Below, piece by piece: positions 43,043-51,742 of a stretch of DNA of 64,000 bases; within the stretch, counting starts at the first letter, position 1; the number at the start of each line of letters is the position of its first letter. The position numbers were made by a program, and so were the translations under genes. The notes beneath the pieces were generated by a model. The model was not told the DNA's origin and ran no database searches. It saw nothing but the letters and a program-made list of their open reading frames with translations. Location: IMG/VR virus record IMGVR_UViG_3300020462_000001, positions 1-64,000 of that record; one strand, 5' to 3'. This DNA is from a virus.

Positions 43043-43550
43043 AATGGACGTATGTACTCATAATATACTTCGTTTTGCTAGGTGCCAATCCAGCGTGAGG
43101 GTACTCCCACGTGGGAGGGAACACTAATACTTTACCACATCTAGGCCGAATATACAACCCACTTTGAGTGAAGTGTGTATCTCCGTCATTATTATTCAAG
43201 TAGAAGAGAAAGGCCAAAGCTCTTCTAGCAGTATCATATGATGCAACATCTACATGTTCATCAAACCTTTGTTCTCCACCTGGTTCATATCTTTTAATAC
43301 GAAATTCTTCCAGAGACCTAAGCCTTGGAAGAAACTTATTATTGACATCAGAAGCATACATTCCGTATGCTTTCTGAGTATATTTTATCAACAATTCTAT
43401 TACTTCTGGTTGATGTTGATTTAAGTTGAGTTGAGTGAAGCATGGTGTGTAATCATTGTTGATATACTCATGTCCACTCTCTGTATTCTCAAATACATCT
43501 ATCAGTGTTTCACAGAAATCCTTTGGGATAACATCATACACTTGAACCAT
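43035..43550 (-). CDS. 2OG-Fe(II) oxygenase (171 aa)
   Basis: ATG at 43550 chosen; the frame could extend to 43577. RFDEHVDVASYD gives HxD, ALAFLFYLNNNDGDTHFTQS the core strands, and VFPPTWEYPHAGLAPSKTKY the distal His and Arg/Lys region. It belongs to the prolyl 4-hydroxylase-like cyanophage family. It sits between uvsX and gp41 and overlaps both, so it belongs to the replication operon. Substrate unknown. Confidence 0.88.
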   Translation of the reverse strand: MVQVYDVIPKDFCETLIDVFENTESGHEYINNDYTPCFTQLNLNQHQPEVIELLIKYTQKAYGMYASDVNNKFLPRLRSLEEFRIKRYEPGGEQRFDEHVDVASYDTARRALAFLFYLNNNDGDTHFTQSGLYIRPRCGKVLVFPPTWEYPHAGLAPSKTKYIMSTYVHYE

Positions 43551-44544
43551 ATGAGAATTGTTCTTTTGCAATTTCATCTAACTTTTCTAATACTTCTTGA
43601 GTAAAATACGTTTCTGGATCTTTCAGAATAGCTTTAGCATAAACCTTCTTACCATCAAACTCATAACGACCGGCAACGTTCTTCCATAGTCCACCAAGTT
43701 CTCCTAACTCTAGGAGACCATAATACTTATCAAGGCCCCTTTCATCATAATAAAGACGAACCGTTACATCTTTGTTCTCTTTACTAAGTCTTGACTTTGC
43801 TGTTTTAACTTTGATAAGGTTTCCGACAACTTCTGTTCCATCCTTTTCCTTTTTCTTGCTGAGATAAAGGATCGTAGAAGCGGCATACTTGAGGCCACTG
43901 CCTCCTCCCATTTCCTTAGTAGGGACATAAGATCCGATGACATCGTAGGTGTGATTAGTAACAATCATTGGAATTTTAGCCTGTCCCAACTTCAGGGTTA
44001 ACATCCTAAATGCACCTTTAACCAACTGAGATTTGGTCATGTCACGAACTTGTTTGTCGTTAAGTGCGTCAGAAATCTCTTTCTCTGTGGATAACATACC
44101 CAAAGAGTCTAAAACAAACATACAGGGTTTGCGATCACTTTCAGGTGTCTTTAGATATATATCGACAGCCTGTAATGCCTTCTGTCGAAACTGCTCAATG
44201 GTTACAACATTAATAACAACTAATCTACTCAGGTCAATTCCACGACTCTCAAGAAGAGATTTGTTAACTGCGGCTTCAGTGTCAAAGTACAGACAGTAAC
44301 CACCAGGATTACTATCCAGAAAATTCTTAACCACAGCGAGACTAAAGAAAGTCTTGCCAGTAGAAGACTCACCAGCAATGGCAGTAATCTTATTCCCAGA
44401 ACAACCACCAAATATACTACCTGACAGAAGTCCGTTAAGGATGAACGAACCTGAGTCCACGTAAGTTTCTGTTTCGTCGATATCTGATGCGAGTTGTGTG
44501 TATTCATCACCAATCTCTTTTACAATCTCTTTTAAAAAATCCAT
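43534..44544 (-). CDS. uvsX: RecA-like recombinase UvsX
   Basis: 336 aa. Walker A AIAGESSTGKTFFSLAVV near residue 52, CLYFDTEAAVNK, Walker B CMFVLDSLGMLSTEKEI, and PMIVTNHTYDVIGSYVPTKE with the L2-type loop. UvsX pairs homologous DNA in recombination-dependent replication, loaded by UvsY and gp32, which are outside the window. One base from the small gene upstream. Its length is close to that of cyanophage homologs and shorter than T4's 391. Confidence 0.96.
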   Translation of the reverse strand: MDFLKEIVKEIGDEYTQLASDIDETETYVDSGSFILNGLLSGSIFGGCSGNKITAIAGESSTGKTFFSLAVVKNFLDSNPGGYCLYFDTEAAVNKSLLESRGIDLSRLVVINVVTIEQFRQKALQAVDIYLKTPESDRKPCMFVLDSLGMLSTEKEISDALNDKQVRDMTKSQLVKGAFRMLTLKLGQAKIPMIVTNHTYDVIGSYVPTKEMGGGSGLKYAASTILYLSKKKEKDGTEVVGNLIKVKTAKSRLSKENKDVTVRLYYDERGLDKYYGLLELGELGGLWKNVAGRYEFDGKKVYAKAILKDPETYFTQEVLEKLDEIAKEQFSYGSSV

Positions 44545-44545
44545 A

Positions 44546-44683
44546 CTAATCAGTTATTTTTAATTTTTCCCAATAGGGAGTTTGACCTTTTGATGCTTTC
44601 ATCATAGCAATATAAGTCATTACCTCTTCTATAGAAGAAAGTATTATGGGGGGTTTAATTGGTGAGTGCCAGAGTTTGTACAT
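44546..44683 (-). CDS. Small protein between gp43C and uvsX (45 aa)
   Basis: The ATG (44681-44683) overlaps the polymerase stop (TAATG) and the frame ends in TAG at 44546, one base before the uvsX ATG. The product (MYKLWHSPIKPPIILSSIEE, then YIAMMKASKGQTPYWEKLKI) has basic and aromatic residues. Complete filling of the gap with start and stop overlaps supports a real gene. No function known. Confidence 0.65.
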   Translation of the reverse strand: MYKLWHSPIKPPIILSSIEEVMTYIAMMKASKGQTPYWEKLKITD

Positions 44684-45843
44684 TATCCGAAGAATAGTTC
44701 TAAATTTGCAACCTTTTCAACATTCCACCCAATAGAATCCAATACGACTTTTAAAGGTTCAAGGAAAGCCTTGTTAAATTGTAACTCATAATCAATATAC
44801 TTGTGAAGACCAGTCTCATATGGAAAATCTGAAATAAAACTAATCACATTCTCACGAATAGGATTAGCCTTCTTCAAATACACAAACTTGATCTTATCTC
44901 CATTCTGGATGGTAGTATACTTATTATCCAGTCCTTTCTCTTTCATATAATAATTATAAAGCAAAGCTCCTCTCACATGGATTGGACACCCTTTGCCATA
45001 TATTGTTGAATGGTTCTTATGTTTATTTACATCAGAAATAGAACGGGGAAATGAGAGCTCTTCTGGAGAAAGGTTATTGAATTTAGTTCTAGCATTATCA
45101 ATAAACCTAATCATCTCATCTTCTGTTCCCTTCATCATCAACTTAAGGGCATCCTTAATCATAGTTCTACAAGGTGCAGGTGTTGATGACTTAACAGCTT
45201 CAATACCCATGATCTTGAGTTTGGGTTCCTCATAACGAACACCCTCACTATCCCACACATTGAGGATGTATCTCTTCTTTGCTGTCCAGATTCCACGGTC
45301 AGCGATATTCTCTCGCTTCATCTGCATCTTCTGATCATATGCGTTTACATAATCAGCCAGTTCCACATAACACTTATCGATGAAGGGTTCTAGTTGATCC
45401 TGACACACTTTATCAAGTAGATTTACAACCTTCTCTTTATCATCCTTCTGTTTAGATAAAAACTTATCTACCAAAGGTCCGAGGTTTAGATATACAGAAT
45501 CAGTATCAACAGCAATCACATAATCTTTATCTGTTTTGAGGAGATCATTCAGATACTTATTGAGTTTATTCTCAATCCATCGAATAGAGGTTTGACCAGA
45601 TAGTGTAATAGCTTCTGCATTTGCCAACTTATAGTATCGAAACCATTGATTACCAATGGCACCATAAGCTGAGTTCAAACAAATCTTTCTCACCATCTGG
45701 AAGTTGTTAAACTTGGCAATATCTTTTACAGTTTGGTCTCTAAGTTTTAAGAGTTGACTATCACTGAGTTTAGAATAGTCTTTATCAGATTGTATAATCT
45801 CCTCTTCTGGTCCCTCTCCAGCACCACCAATCAGATAACCCAT
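44683..45843 (-). CDS. 43B: DNA polymerase PolB (T4 gp43-like), C-terminal fragment
   Basis: 386 aa beginning MGYLIGGAGEGPEEEIIQSD, then FNNFQMVRKICLNSAYGAIG (Pol motif B, KxxxNSxYG near residue 55) and DYVIAVDTDSVYLNLG (motif C, DTDS). KKRYILNVWDSEGVRYEEPK is the KKRY thumb motif. It ends NLELFFG, a clamp-binding tail like that of T4 gp43. It lacks exonuclease and motif A, which are in 47317-48777. The two together make a full polymerase of about 870 aa. ATG overlaps a tiny lipoprotein stop. Confidence 0.93.
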   Translation of the reverse strand: MGYLIGGAGEGPEEEIIQSDKDYSKLSDSQLLKLRDQTVKDIAKFNNFQMVRKICLNSAYGAIGNQWFRYYKLANAEAITLSGQTSIRWIENKLNKYLNDLLKTDKDYVIAVDTDSVYLNLGPLVDKFLSKQKDDKEKVVNLLDKVCQDQLEPFIDKCYVELADYVNAYDQKMQMKRENIADRGIWTAKKRYILNVWDSEGVRYEEPKLKIMGIEAVKSSTPAPCRTMIKDALKLMMKGTEDEMIRFIDNARTKFNNLSPEELSFPRSISDVNKHKNHSTIYGKGCPIHVRGALLYNYYMKEKGLDNKYTTIQNGDKIKFVYLKKANPIRENVISFISDFPYETGLHKYIDYELQFNKAFLEPLKVVLDSIGWNVEKVANLELFFG

Positions 45844-45989
45844 TACTTACAAACCTCTTTTGAGTAGTTTACACCAATTCTATTTCCATAGTAGATAAAA
45901 CAGTCAGTGTCCACACTGTCCTCCACCTTACTTGAACACCCAGCCATTAAAAGAATAACCAATACTATGTAACCTTTCCAATAACCCAT
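45843..45989 (-). CDS. Tiny lipoprotein (48 aa)
   Basis: ATG at 45989 overlaps the end of purM; the frame ends TAA overlapping the gp43B ATG (TAATG). The product has a lipoprotein signal YIVLVILLMAGCSSK with lipobox MAGC at residue 18. The mature peptide SSKVEDSVDTDCFIYYGNRI has a second Cys. This looks like a small lipid-anchored peptide of the Rz1 size class, but no partner is seen. Its translation is probably coupled to that of the polymerase fragment. Confidence 0.6.
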   Translation of the reverse strand: MGYWKGYIVLVILLMAGCSSKVEDSVDTDCFIYYGNRIGVNYSKEVCK

Positions 45990-46894
45990 GACCTCATACC
46001 ATGTGGTACATCTGAAATAATTTCTTGAGTCAATATAGCTGCATCTTTTGGAACAACCACACAGAATCCAATACCTAGATTGAATACATTACGCATCTCT
46101 TCCTCAGCAATGTCTCCTGCTTCTTGAATCTTATTGAAGAGTTCTGGTCTCAACCAAGAGTCATAATCTACATCAACTGTCAAACCCTTAGGAAGACACC
46201 TAGGAAGGTTCTCAGGGATACCACCACCTGTGATGTGAGACATACCTAAGATAGGAACCACATCTAACAAGTCCTTAACAAGAGGAGCATAGATTGTAGT
46301 TGGTACTAACAACTCTGGCATCTCTTTATAGTAAATGTAATTTCTCCACAACATATCATTGACCAGTGTATATCCATTACTATGAAGACCACTACTCTCA
46401 ATACCAATGACTAAATCACCTGCTCTGATACTTCTACCATCAACAATATCAAACTTCTCTACAATACCAGTACAGAAACCAGCAAGGTCATAGTCAGTTG
46501 CTCTAAAATGTTCAGCAGTCTCACCACCTAGGAGTTGCATATCTGCAATCCTACAACCCTCAGCAACTCCATGGATAATATCACTTACATTAGCATCAAG
46601 TGTTTTAGTAGAGATATAGTCTAGAAAATATAATGGTTTAGCGCCAGAACATATAACATCATTGACGCACATAGCAACAAGATCTTGACCGATAGTGGTG
46701 TAATCATTAGCAATCCTACAGATATTGATCTTAGTTCCAACACCATCAGCACCAGACACTAGTACAGGTCTTTCATATCCTGACGGTACTTCCATCATTC
46801 CATTAAACCCACCAACACTAGGTGATAATGTTTTGATATACTCTACAAAGGATCGTCCCTTCTGAATGTCAACACCAGATGTCTTATAGTCCAT
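45965..46894 (-). CDS. purM: Phosphoribosylaminoimidazole synthetase (AIR synthetase)
   Basis: 309 aa. SGADGVGTKINICRIANDYT (Gly-rich loop with K and D), DLVAMCVNDVICSGAKPLYF, YDLAGFCTGIVEK and GMSHITGGGIPENLPRCLP are hallmark PurM strings. It converts FGAM to AIR in purine synthesis. Cyanophages carry purM to support nucleotide supply. Unusually it lies between the two halves of gp43. Slightly shorter than bacterial PurM (about 345 aa) at the C-terminus, as common in phage copies. Confidence 0.95.
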   Translation of the reverse strand: MDYKTSGVDIQKGRSFVEYIKTLSPSVGGFNGMMEVPSGYERPVLVSGADGVGTKINICRIANDYTTIGQDLVAMCVNDVICSGAKPLYFLDYISTKTLDANVSDIIHGVAEGCRIADMQLLGGETAEHFRATDYDLAGFCTGIVEKFDIVDGRSIRAGDLVIGIESSGLHSNGYTLVNDMLWRNYIYYKEMPELLVPTTIYAPLVKDLLDVVPILGMSHITGGGIPENLPRCLPKGLTVDVDYDSWLRPELFNKIQEAGDIAEEEMRNVFNLGIGFCVVVPKDAAILTQEIISDVPHGMRSWVIGKVT

Positions 46895-47147
46895 TTTTAA
46901 TCTTCTCCAATTGTTCTAGTTTCCATATGATATAGTCAATCGTTGGAATACACTGAGGATTCCATCCAACAAACCCATATGTTTGTTCACTAGGCATCTT
47001 CCAACATTCAGCATCATCATTCTCAAGATCTAATGACTTACGATACTCTTCCTCACCAAACATAACAACTGCTCGTTCTGCTTGGTTCAAACTCTTGAAA
47101 CAATCAAAAGAATTTCTTCTAATGATTTCAGGGATTTTGTGTTTCAT
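46884..47147 (-). CDS. Unknown protein between gp43 halves (87 aa)
   Basis: Basic N-terminus MKHKIPEIIRRNSFDCFKSL, then RAVVMFGEEEYRKSLDLEND, AECWKMPSEQTYGFVGWNPQ and a helical end IIWKLEQLEKIKNGL. No homing-endonuclease motif (GIY-YIG, HNH, LAGLIDADG) is visible. Starts with an ATGA overlap and overlaps purM by 11 nt. Not recognised. Confidence 0.65.
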   Translation of the reverse strand: MKHKIPEIIRRNSFDCFKSLNQAERAVVMFGEEEYRKSLDLENDDAECWKMPSEQTYGFVGWNPQCIPTIDYIIWKLEQLEKIKNGL

Positions 47148-47320
47148 TTTCCAAATAGTATACTACAAACTACATACAATCCCATTGCAGACCAGTATCC
47201 TAAGGTTGTCAATCCAAAAATACCTGGTATTACAGCATTCCATACTAACATAACAATTAGAGGACTTACAAATAATTTTATCAGTATTTTACATAATGAT
47301 TCTTTTTGTTTAGGGTTCAT
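47144..47320 (-). CDS. Small two-helix membrane protein (58 aa)
   Basis: ATG at 47320 overlaps the gp43A stop (ATGA), and its own TGA overlaps the next ATG (ATGA). Helices LIKLFVSPLIVMLVWNAVIP and TTLGYWSAMGLYVVCSILFG with a short loop. Similar small proteins with WNxxxPxxFGL...GYxxAxxL occur in many marine phages, as I recall, unnamed. Placed between the polymerase halves. Confidence 0.65.
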   Translation of the reverse strand: MNPKQKESLCKILIKLFVSPLIVMLVWNAVIPGIFGLTTLGYWSAMGLYVVCSILFGK

Positions 47321-48777
47321 AGTCCTCTCCTCTTCATCTCACCTTCAATATCAACTAACTTTTGTTTACTCTTCAACATCTCACCTTTGAATGCCTTACG
47401 TTCTGCATACATCTTCTCCATCAATTCAGGAAGGAAACCTTTAACATCCTTACGGAACATAGCTCCGTTAGCACATACTGCATAATCATTATACATCTCA
47501 AAGGTGAGTTTCTCATTAAGAATCTTATCGACAGTAACTGATGGATGTTTCTCTTCCAAAAGAGTTTCAGGTGAGATGTTGTATTGCATCATCAGGTGAG
47601 GATACAGAGAGTTAAGGTCAAAAGATACAACCCAATCATATACACCAGGAACAGGTTCTTTAACATAAGCTCCAGCAAACTTCTCATCCTTAGCAGATGT
47701 TTGTTTCTGAGGAATTACAATATTCCTCTTCTTCAGATAGTTATAGATGATCGTATCCCACAACTTTACTTGACCCATAGGATCAACAAAGTTCACTTTG
47801 GCATCAAATGCCATAGTAATAACCAGTTCAATCAAACGGAGTTTGTCCTCCATCCTATCAACAAGTTCCACGTCAACGATGTTGTAATCTACAAACTTCT
47901 TCCAGTTACCATCATAGAACTCTTTGAAGGTATTGAACTCTGAGTGGTCCAACTTCTTCTGTCCAAGTTCTACCTCAGCAATAAAGTCCAGTTTATAGCT
48001 CTCCCTATTCACATAAGTAAATTTCTTATAAAGTTCCAGAAAATCCAAAACAGTCACACCAGCCATGGTATAAACATTGTTTGGACGACCATGAATAAAC
48101 ACCTCATCATGAGACACAATGCCCCAAGGAGAGAACCTCCTCACATTTCTGTCTCCCATGATACGAGACACACGGCCAAGAAGATAAGGGATATCATAGA
48201 AACGACAGTTCCACCCTGTCACAACCTCAGGAGGATCTGTAGACCACCAATGGATGAATGCATTCAACATATCAATCTCATCTTCATAATGATGATATGT
48301 CACATTCTTTTGAGTAGGTGTATATGGTTTCCTACCCCAAGTAATGATGTTTTTGGTTGTGTAATCTTGAATGGAGATGGTCAACATCTCCTCGGCACAA
48401 GAATCAGGTGAAGGGAATCCATCTTCTGACTTCACCTCAATATCAATAGTGACCAGTTTGATCTTCTTAATATCCCATTTGATTTCATTTTGGGGATACT
48501 TTTCAGAGATATATTGGTAGAGATACTTCTCATTACCATAGATCTTGAAACCATCTACACCTTCGTACTTCTTATAGAACTCTCTACAATCTCTTACATT
48601 TCCAGGTTGAATAGGTTCAACATTCTCACCTTCGAGTGTTTTCCACTCACTTTCTTTCTTGGATTTCACATACAGAGTAGGGAAAAACTCTTCCTTATAC
48701 TGAACACGTCGTCCATTCTCATAACCACGAACCAGGAACTCATTCCTGACCATTTGAATGTTGGTGTAAAAATCCAA
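47317..48777 (-). CDS. 43A: DNA polymerase PolB (T4 gp43-like), N-terminal fragment
   Basis: 486 aa. Exonuclease motifs: Exo I VTIDIEVKSEDGFP, Exo II GWNCRFYDIPYLLGRV, Exo III YNIVDVELVDRM. Pol motif A VVSFDLNSLYPHLMMQYNIS lies near residue 395. The chain ends MLKSKQKLVDIEGEMKRRGL and a TGA, before motif B. It therefore holds proofreading and the first catalytic Asp; motifs B and C are in 44683-45843. The break falls between palm motif A and the finger helices. The stop is ATGA-coupled to a membrane-protein gene. Confidence 0.93.
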   Translation of the reverse strand: MDFYTNIQMVRNEFLVRGYENGRRVQYKEEFFPTLYVKSKKESEWKTLEGENVEPIQPGNVRDCREFYKKYEGVDGFKIYGNEKYLYQYISEKYPQNEIKWDIKKIKLVTIDIEVKSEDGFPSPDSCAEEMLTISIQDYTTKNIITWGRKPYTPTQKNVTYHHYEDEIDMLNAFIHWWSTDPPEVVTGWNCRFYDIPYLLGRVSRIMGDRNVRRFSPWGIVSHDEVFIHGRPNNVYTMAGVTVLDFLELYKKFTYVNRESYKLDFIAEVELGQKKLDHSEFNTFKEFYDGNWKKFVDYNIVDVELVDRMEDKLRLIELVITMAFDAKVNFVDPMGQVKLWDTIIYNYLKKRNIVIPQKQTSAKDEKFAGAYVKEPVPGVYDWVVSFDLNSLYPHLMMQYNISPETLLEEKHPSVTVDKILNEKLTFEMYNDYAVCANGAMFRKDVKGFLPELMEKMYAERKAFKGEMLKSKQKLVDIEGEMKRRGL

Positions 48778-48779
48778 GA

Positions 48780-49034
48780 TTACTCCTTCACCAGGTCTGT
48801 GTACTTGTCTACCAGTGTACCATTAGGTTCCACAATAGTCAAGATCTTATCTGAGTGGATCATAAAGGTATTTTGATTGGTAATATTAACCAACCAAGGT
48901 GATAAGGTTTGGTTATCATTGACAACAAAGGGTTCTGTCAGTTTACAATCTGCTTCACCCATATCTCCACCAATCTCTTCAATCTGAGTCAACAGATTCA
49001 GGTTGTTCGTCAGTACTAGTAGCTTCGGCTTCAT
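48780..49034 (-). CDS. Sm-like small protein, paralog A (84 aa)
   Basis: KPKLLVLTNNLNLLTQIEEI, LTEPFVVNDNQTLSPWLVNI, FMIHSDKILTIVEPNGTLVD. Strand order and the L-x-x-PW-L ... I-x-V-P pattern match 48979-49341, 50811-51095 and 63087-63476. The fold fits a short Sm-type beta barrel. Overlaps the upstream paralog by 56 nt in another frame. It may bind RNA or modulate other phage proteins; no direct evidence. Confidence 0.65.
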   Translation of the reverse strand: MKPKLLVLTNNLNLLTQIEEIGGDMGEADCKLTEPFVVNDNQTLSPWLVNITNQNTFMIHSDKILTIVEPNGTLVDKYTDLVKE

Positions 49035-51098: not shown

Positions 51099-51488
51099 TT
51101 AACCTCCATCAATTTGACAACCGACTAATGCTCCACCAATAATTCCAGCTGGAATACTCCAGATCCAGTTTTCTTGAGTGGATAGAGTGCCTCCAGCAGC
51201 ACCTCCAGCAATTCCACCGATAATACTACCTTCAACACAGGAATTATCATCTCCCTGACGGGGAGCAGGTCGAGTGTTTCCACCAGTATTATAGGAGTTT
51301 TCACAAGGAACTTCTACTCTTTCATTCCATGTTCTAACTCTTCCTGGATTTCCTCGTGTTCCAGGAATGTACTCTTCACGATAAACTGTCTCATAACAGT
51401 TCGTTTGTTCTGTTCCGCCACCTTGACGATAGTCAGCCATTACAGGACTACCAAATGCCAGTACCAGAATAGGGATTAGATACTTCAT
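51099..51488 (-). CDS. Exported glycine-zipper protein (129 aa)
   Basis: Signal peptide MKYLIPILVLAFGSPVMADY with cleavage at VMA-DY. The mature part has YRQGGGTEQTNCYETVYREE, Cys residues and a C-terminal Gly zipper: VEGSIIGGIAGGAAGGTLST and WSIPAGIIGGALVGCQI. Glycine-zipper 2TM proteins associate with outer membranes. It is oddly placed between purS and an Sm-like gene in the replication block. Overlaps purS by four bases. Confidence 0.75.
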   Translation of the reverse strand: MKYLIPILVLAFGSPVMADYRQGGGTEQTNCYETVYREEYIPGTRGNPGRVRTWNERVEVPCENSYNTGGNTRPAPRQGDDNSCVEGSIIGGIAGGAAGGTLSTQENWIWSIPAGIIGGALVGCQIDGG

Positions 51489-51742
51489 TGAATCTCCTCA
51501 ATATTGAATATCTCCCAGTCTTCAATTACTGTGTTTGCAAGTAATCTATCACTGAGAAGTTTTAATTGTTCGTTCATTGATTCTTCATCATCAGAATCGA
51601 TATACATCTCAATCAACTTACCCATTCTCAACTTTTCAATATTCAAATCGGAAAGTCTTCCACAAGCTCCTCTAACAGCATTACCTGCAGAGTCATCAAC
51701 TTGGGCTCTCAATCTGGTGTATATCGTAGCTTTGTACTTCAT
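51485..51742 (-). CDS. purS: FGAM synthase subunit PurS
   Basis: 85 aa. YKATIYTRLRAQVDDSAGNA, VRGACGRLSDLNIEKLRMGK and RLLANTVIEDWEIFNIEEIQ are the PurS signature (strand-helix-strand, R-x-GK, then LLANxVIEDx). PurS joins PurL and PurQ to make FGAM from FGAR. In the window only PurS is seen, with PurM and PurC; no PurL or PurQ. It may work with the host enzyme. Overlaps gp44 by four bases. Confidence 0.9.
   Translation of the reverse strand: MKYKATIYTRLRAQVDDSAGNAVRGACGRLSDLNIEKLRMGKLIEMYIDSDDEESMNEQLKLLSDRLLANTVIEDWEIFNIEEIQ

Follow-up and report, generated by a model that had tools for sequence, protein, structure and literature searches.

The window considered here, a 64,000-nt stretch at positions 1 to 64,000 of the IMG/VR virus record IMGVR_UViG_3300020462_000001, comes from a marine cyanophage and encodes its T4-type replicative DNA polymerase, gp43, in two genes (gp43A and gp43B) that are separated by an insert of 1.47 kb holding four other genes (Table 1). 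All six open reading frames (ORFs) of this unit lie on the minus strand, and their coordinates, as well as their Pfam and PHROGs identities, agree with the original prediction, made from the sequence alone, that gp43 is divided in this way. One copy of each half is present in the 90.5-kb record, which contains no second gp43A or gp43B.

Table 1. Genes of the split gp43 unit and neighbouring genes in the window.
Gene or product	Position	Strand	Description
gp43A	47317..48777	minus	N-terminal half of T4-type family B DNA polymerase; N-terminal domain, 3'-5' exonuclease, palm motif A, first fingers helix; C-terminal end LVDIEGEMKRRGL, located at fingers tip
memb58	47144..47320	minus	58-aa predicted membrane protein; cargo; phrog_705, weaker match phrog_2169 (membrane protein)
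unk87	46884..47147	minus	87 aa, function unknown; cargo; phrog_1132; travels with purM
PurM	45965..46894	minus	Phosphoribosylaminoimidazole synthetase; AIRS N and C domains; cargo, auxiliary metabolic gene
lipo48	45843..45989	minus	48-aa putative lipoprotein; cargo; LMAGC box (by inspection)
gp43B	44683..45843	minus	C-terminal half of gp43; N-terminus MGYLIGG; second fingers helix with motif B, palm motif C, thumb, C-terminal tail
45-aa protein	44546..44683	minus	Unknown protein, phrog_3371; downstream neighbour, TAATG-coupled to gp43B
UvsX	43534..44544	minus	Conserved downstream neighbour, replication operon
DUF6561 protein	48780..49034	minus	Conserved gene directly upstream of gp43A
PurS	51485-51742		Adjoins gp44

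Coordinates and sequence show an overlap at each of the five junctions within the unit, as had been predicted, although the proposed ATGA or TAATG form is wrong for two of them. The gp43A/memb58 and memb58/unk87 junctions overlap as ATGA and lipo48/gp43B as TAATG, whereas unk87 and purM share 11 nt and purM and lipo48 share 25 nt. The start codon of gp43A is TTG and is preceded by a GAAGGAG site, and the KEVCK codons of lipo48 supply AAGAGG upstream of the gp43B start.

The break falls at a defined point of the polymerase fold. In the Pfam Pol B profile (PF00136), gp43A covers columns 16-144 and gp43B columns 144-452, the profile breaking at 144 in both; gp43A holds the exonuclease and the first third of the Pol B domain, and gp43B the remainder. 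Both halves also match the DNA polymerase family phrog_262, plus the half-length families phrog_2062 and phrog_1918, which are a sign of split halves already in public data. The alignment with RB69 gp43 puts the end of gp43A at residue 509 and the start of gp43B at 510. The break thus sits at the fingers tip, and the two chains contribute one fingers helix each. All 13 active-site residues tested are conserved across the two chains (RB69 numbering), with D114, E116, D222, D327, D411, Y416, R482 and K486 in gp43A and K560, N564, Y567, D621 and D623 in gp43B. The predicted distribution of motifs is thereby borne out, since gp43A has the exonuclease motifs, motif A and the fingers Arg/Lys, while gp43B has motifs B and C together with the C-terminal tail. 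The locus is thus a split gp43 of two cistrons, with a fingers break between motifs A and B, and, judged by motifs and active-site residues, gp43A and gp43B together are a T4-type family B DNA polymerase.

Purifying selection acts on both halves. Between the window and a related contig (L050; L numbers denote the loci compared), the ratio of nonsynonymous to synonymous substitution rates (dN/dS) by the NG86 method is 0.096 for gp43A, 0.070 for gp43B, 0.162 for purM and 0.237 for unk87, and the halves give 0.05-0.09 in two other pairs; dS is near or above 1, hence these values are approximate. The record is a metagenome contig, which lends some substance to the idea that the halves are pseudogene fragments or an assembly artefact. 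This idea is rejected as having next to no probability by the retention of every catalytic residue tested, the low dN/dS of both halves and the occurrence of the same junction in many independent contigs and 45 isolate records. Assembly error, for which the original prediction had proposed a check, is very unlikely because cultured isolates and independent contigs show the same break; L050, L101, L155 and L171 share both the junction and a similar cargo.

Rejoining of the halves by protein trans-splicing, RNA splicing or ribosomal frameshifting must also be considered, as the gp43 of Aeromonas phages includes split inteins and a group I intron (PMC2993671). In the window, however, the extra residues at the break amount to only about 13 and 30 aa, in which no intein boundary or motif was visible by inspection, and no intein family appeared among the Pfam and PHROGs profile matches of the window proteins. 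Further, Rfam gave no match, either to this part of the window or to eight loci that carry endonuclease or cargo genes, and the four-gene insert excludes joining by frameshifting. Covalent rejoining is therefore very improbable, and the earlier proposal that the halves lack intein flanks and associate non-covalently is supported. The replicative polymerase would consist of two separately made polypeptides held together non-covalently as a single gp43, in which the helix with Arg482 and Lys486 from gp43A and the helix with Lys560 and Asn564 from gp43B would jointly form the nucleotide pocket; we infer this assembly, and the activity of the heterodimer, from sequence. Translation of the halves is probably coupled: the C-terminal codons of gp43A include the ribosome-binding site of the following gene, and the relatives with the simplest junction have a gp43A stop and a gp43B start that overlap as TAATG.

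Split gp43 as such is a kind already known from Aeromonas and Acinetobacter phages, and the original prediction was correct about the Aeromonas cases (sequence records; PMC2988022). The halves of an Aeromonas phage enzyme are reported to co-purify and to have polymerase activity (PMC2988022), and Acinetobacter phage ZZ1 also has a split gp43 (PMC4177764). Split polymerase genes have been mentioned for Autographiviridae cyanophages, a different polymerase setting (PMC10976474). On the RB69 sequence, the break lies at 509/510 in the window, 513/514 in 44RR, 515/516 in 65 and 513/514 in Acj9, and the GenBank records place those of 44RR, 65, Acj9 and Konradin-v2 all within residues 504-516. Aeromonas phages 44RR2.8t, 25, 65 and Aes508 resemble the window in having gp43 broken at the fingers tip with no covalent rejoining there. 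Phages 25 and Aes508 carry a freestanding endonuclease between the halves, while the halves are separated by a short untranslated spacer in 44RR and by two bases in 65, neither with metabolic genes, unlike the window. The Aeromonas splits also lack the GYLIGG start, and Aes508 further has an intron and a split intein beyond the break. Among the split gp43 genes of Acinetobacter phages Acj9, Konradin-v2 and ZZ1, those of Acj9 and Konradin-v2 are broken at the fingers tip and have several unrelated genes between the halves, as in the window; Acj9 has six between 43A and 43B, non-endonuclease genes among them. These phages differ from the window in forming an independent lineage, whose cargo consists of a DNA-binding protein, unknowns and a homing endonuclease, with no purine genes. 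Similarly, mobE-split nrdA of Aeromonas phage Aeh1 and mobA-split gene 60 of T4 are core genes split by a freestanding endonuclease whose subunits cooperate (PMC2988022), although the genes are different and there is no accessory metabolic cargo.

Closer relatives are found among cultured Synechococcus phages. ACG-2014f (Atlauavirus) belongs to the same family and shares the break and the GYLIGG start, but has two small genes of unknown function, and no purM, between its halves. RN05-S is the closest cultured relative with an intact gp43 and has the same operon order; unlike the window, its tip is fused (LVDIESQLKNRDDPT) and lacks GYLIGG. No description of the cyanophage split lineage, its conserved new start, its spread or its metabolic cargo was found in the literature searched.

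The original prediction presented a cyanophage gp43 split with purM inside as new. The view of the locus as an unusual single case finds no support, as the break is common to many cyanophage contigs and to the ACG-2014f isolates, most of the contigs being without cargo, and at least five other contigs have purM between the halves. A search of IMG/VR with gp43B matched both intact and split relatives, and 85 distinct junctions with the same break and gp43B start were gathered (IMG/VR contigs and two isolates), a set skewed both by the pattern used for searching and by counting only matches that start at residue 1. The cistrons are directly joined in 64 of the 85, overlapping by one base (TAATG or TAGTG). 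A GAGG/AGG-type site, mostly encoded by the KRRG codons that end gp43A, lies upstream of gp43B in 62 of these 64. The remaining junctions hold purM, purS, thioredoxin-like, small or HNH genes. The first codon of gp43B is ATG, GTG, TTG or ATT, with ATT preceded by a GAGG or GGAGG site in ACG-2014f, L002 and L031. In GenBank, the phages with the motif comprise 45 records, all of cultured ACG-2014f. In both ACG-2014f records read, the gp43B start is annotated too far in and the product lacks its N-terminus; in KJ019058 (L191:9001-10164), and also in L192, gp43B probably starts at an ATT after TGAGGT, in the former about 50 codons upstream of the annotated start. L058 and L248 were set aside as splits of this type, since ambiguous bases or a partial duplication explain them better. 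In L294/L248:1-2541 (IMGVR_UViG_3300049043_000133), an endonuclease-bearing tip is followed by a second partial gp43A (365-468) and gp43B, possibly a duplication intermediate or a contig-end artefact.

The start of gp43B is strongly conserved. GYLIGG is present in 24 of 25 same-type contigs found without the GYLIGG pattern, the exception being L017, and is unchanged throughout the 85 junctions, where its codons vary freely at synonymous positions, using all six Leu codons and all four Gly codons. This synonymous variation indicates that the peptide, and not the DNA, is what is conserved. The split may accordingly be adaptive, with GYLIGG as a novel working element, for instance a clasp between the subunits or a point of docking to the replisome. 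We regard this as tentative, given the bias of the wider set, the lack of the motif in L017, the different beginnings of the splits that bear the second endonuclease family described below and a structure model that gave GYLIGG no placement; it is compatible with the reading favoured below.

Two unrelated families of HNH endonuclease are found exactly at the fingers tip, phrog_374 (HNH374) and phrog_655 (HNH655); neither has a Pfam family, and PHROGs assigned both. In L002 and L031 an HNH374 gene is the insert between gp43A and an ATT-initiated gp43B. Close relatives of HNH374 (at least 75% identity) lie directly downstream of gp43A in all seven contigs that have them, four of which end before gp43B, and relatives at 45% identity or less are located elsewhere. 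HNH655 is at the gp43 tip in 18 of the 18 loci found, the 171-kb contig L292 among them. In the window itself no endonuclease gene lies between the gp43 halves, which are thus not a homing-endonuclease split as they stand. Apart from a segment of about 960 nt, which in L198 comprises the HNH gene and its flanks, the gp43 genes of L198 and L222 share 94-96% identity. This segment is 91% identical to L067, which upstream is only 82% identical to L198. The L198 segment is a recent transfer with co-converted flanks, as homing predicts. In both HNH families the gene is preceded by a predicted hairpin that contains a TATAAATA-type motif, as is known for endonucleases of T4.

Endonucleases also occur at other points of these operons. 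A second break lies just after motif A in L045:5000-5800, L046:1600-2560 and L049:700-1500, where the first part ends near a RIAELEKML stop and is followed by an HNH gene (PF01844 in L045) and the rest of gp43; a TTATAAATA motif precedes the HNH gene in L045 and L046. Only an HNH remnant is present at this site in L039:5060-5320, and the site occurs in short-tip and fused-tip backgrounds alike. uvsX is interrupted near residue 215 in L290:5367-7425 and L051:7773-9837, and its parts in L290 flank a distant relative (30%) of the tip endonuclease. Relatives at 39-54% between gp43B and uvsX or between hsp20 and the DUF6561 gene (L282:3192-3749, L067:326-568 and L281:1248-1493) indicate that the tip endonuclease family is scattered around gp43.

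The distribution of the split is patchy. With the tip masked, a phylogeny of 176 gp43 proteins intermixes split and intact forms. A stricter tree of 100 rows, built from RB69 1-440 and 600-903 and so lacking the fingers tip and its flanks, requires 12 changes of the split label, 11 of them forced by well-supported branches; mixed pairings with good support are L016 with L032, L140 with L044 and L051, and L113 with L209. A single split clade was rejected by the approximately unbiased (AU) test (p-AU 2.5e-9), although recombination within gp43 violates the model of a tree and limits any single phylogeny. The tip occurs as three alleles, namely split (LVDIEAEMKRRG and a stop, then MGYLIGG), fused with an LVDIE footprint (cultured RN05-S included) and short (YEKTPTK). 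For about 20 residues to either side of the break, L025, L030 and L031 go with the split alleles of another clade, whereas their distal residues go with their own intact kin (10:2 versus 39:74, Fisher p 0.0015). The short tips of L042, L033 and L038 show the reverse pattern (p 2.8e-5); the flank signal of L163/L180 is borderline and other groups show none. These conflicting flanks indicate that tip alleles have been exchanged between lineages, at least there.

The same distribution bears on the alternative that these cyanophages inherited the split from their ancestor and lost it many times, by in-frame re-fusion or replacement, with endonucleases as late visitors. The two deepest cyanophage branches in the tree are split, the fused tips of L019, L020, L032, L044, L051 and RN05-S retain the LVDIE footprint of the split allele, and HNH374 is found only at already split junctions with GYLIGG. 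However, near-identical YEKTPTK short tips occur in far-apart clades, and the flank conflicts described above show that tip alleles moved between lineages under either view. An ancestral split is thus a serious possibility to which we give somewhat less than even odds.

The junction also serves as a slot for accessory genes. The common operon order is gp44, gp62, regA, hsp20, orf120, DUF6561 gene, gp43, uvsX and gp41. Eight loci, some intact and some split, have purM upstream of orf120, adjoining hsp20 where the contig reaches; this alternative slot, between hsp20 and orf120, is two genes upstream of gp43. Between gp43A and gp43B, purM is found in the window, L006, L050, L101, L155 and L171, and the slot comparison revealed no locus with purM in both positions. 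Other occupants of the slot are unk87, a 66-aa protein, PurS, a 53-aa protein (phrog_3538), phrog_15097 small proteins, a lipoprotein and a thioredoxin-like protein. PurS follows purM inside the gp43 split in L050, L101, L155 and L171, but is next to gp44 in the window. The inside copies do not form one group in a purM tree of only 14 rows, that of L006 falling among upstream-slot copies, and this scatter makes it likely that purM either arrived in the slot on more than one occasion or was replaced there.

Taken together, we favour, with a probability of roughly 0.75, a non-covalent gp43 heterodimer that was split at a homing site and whose junction turned into an accessory-gene slot. The fingers tip would be a homing-endonuclease target at which HNH invasion split gp43. 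Lineages without the endonuclease would have kept the coupled split or regained a fused tip by recombination. In some split lineages, including that of the window, small accessory genes of the replication operon would have settled in the junction, and purM, upstream in other relatives, would have come to lie between the two polymerase genes. The endonuclease origin of the MGYLIGG-type split and the direction of purM movement are the more conjectural steps. Several points weigh against this reading. No MGYLIGG-type junction was caught arising from an endonuclease insertion, and HNH374 may have invaded an already existing split. The flanks of the G2 clade (L026 and kin) are without sign of transfer, a pattern also in keeping with an ancestral split followed by repeated re-fusion. 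When each half was modelled alone with AlphaFold, on alignments of split relatives, the models were poor (mean predicted local distance difference test, pLDDT, scores of 52 for gp43B and 63 for gp43A), so GYLIGG could not be placed. The loci were gathered by similarity, and in part by a pattern containing GYLIGG, so that the counts are not prevalence and the sampling is not a census. A bolder version, in which the fingers-tip split is a mobile allele moving among the polymerases of cyanophages by homing and recombination, GYLIGG is a new working part making a distinct two-subunit form and the slot, located within a core replication gene, collects host-metabolism genes, is rather doubtful at present.

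A replicative polymerase split at the fingers is thus found in many metagenome contigs and in cultured Synechococcus phages, and its halves look functional. As gp43 is a marker gene, splits annotated as fragments or with wrong starts will be miscounted. The natural fingers-tip split points may guide the engineering of split polymerases. Further, the intact, endonuclease-split, bare split, cargo-bearing split and fused forms with a footprint make up a natural series, which allows the steps from selfish insertion to two-subunit enzyme to metabolic gene capture to be tested.

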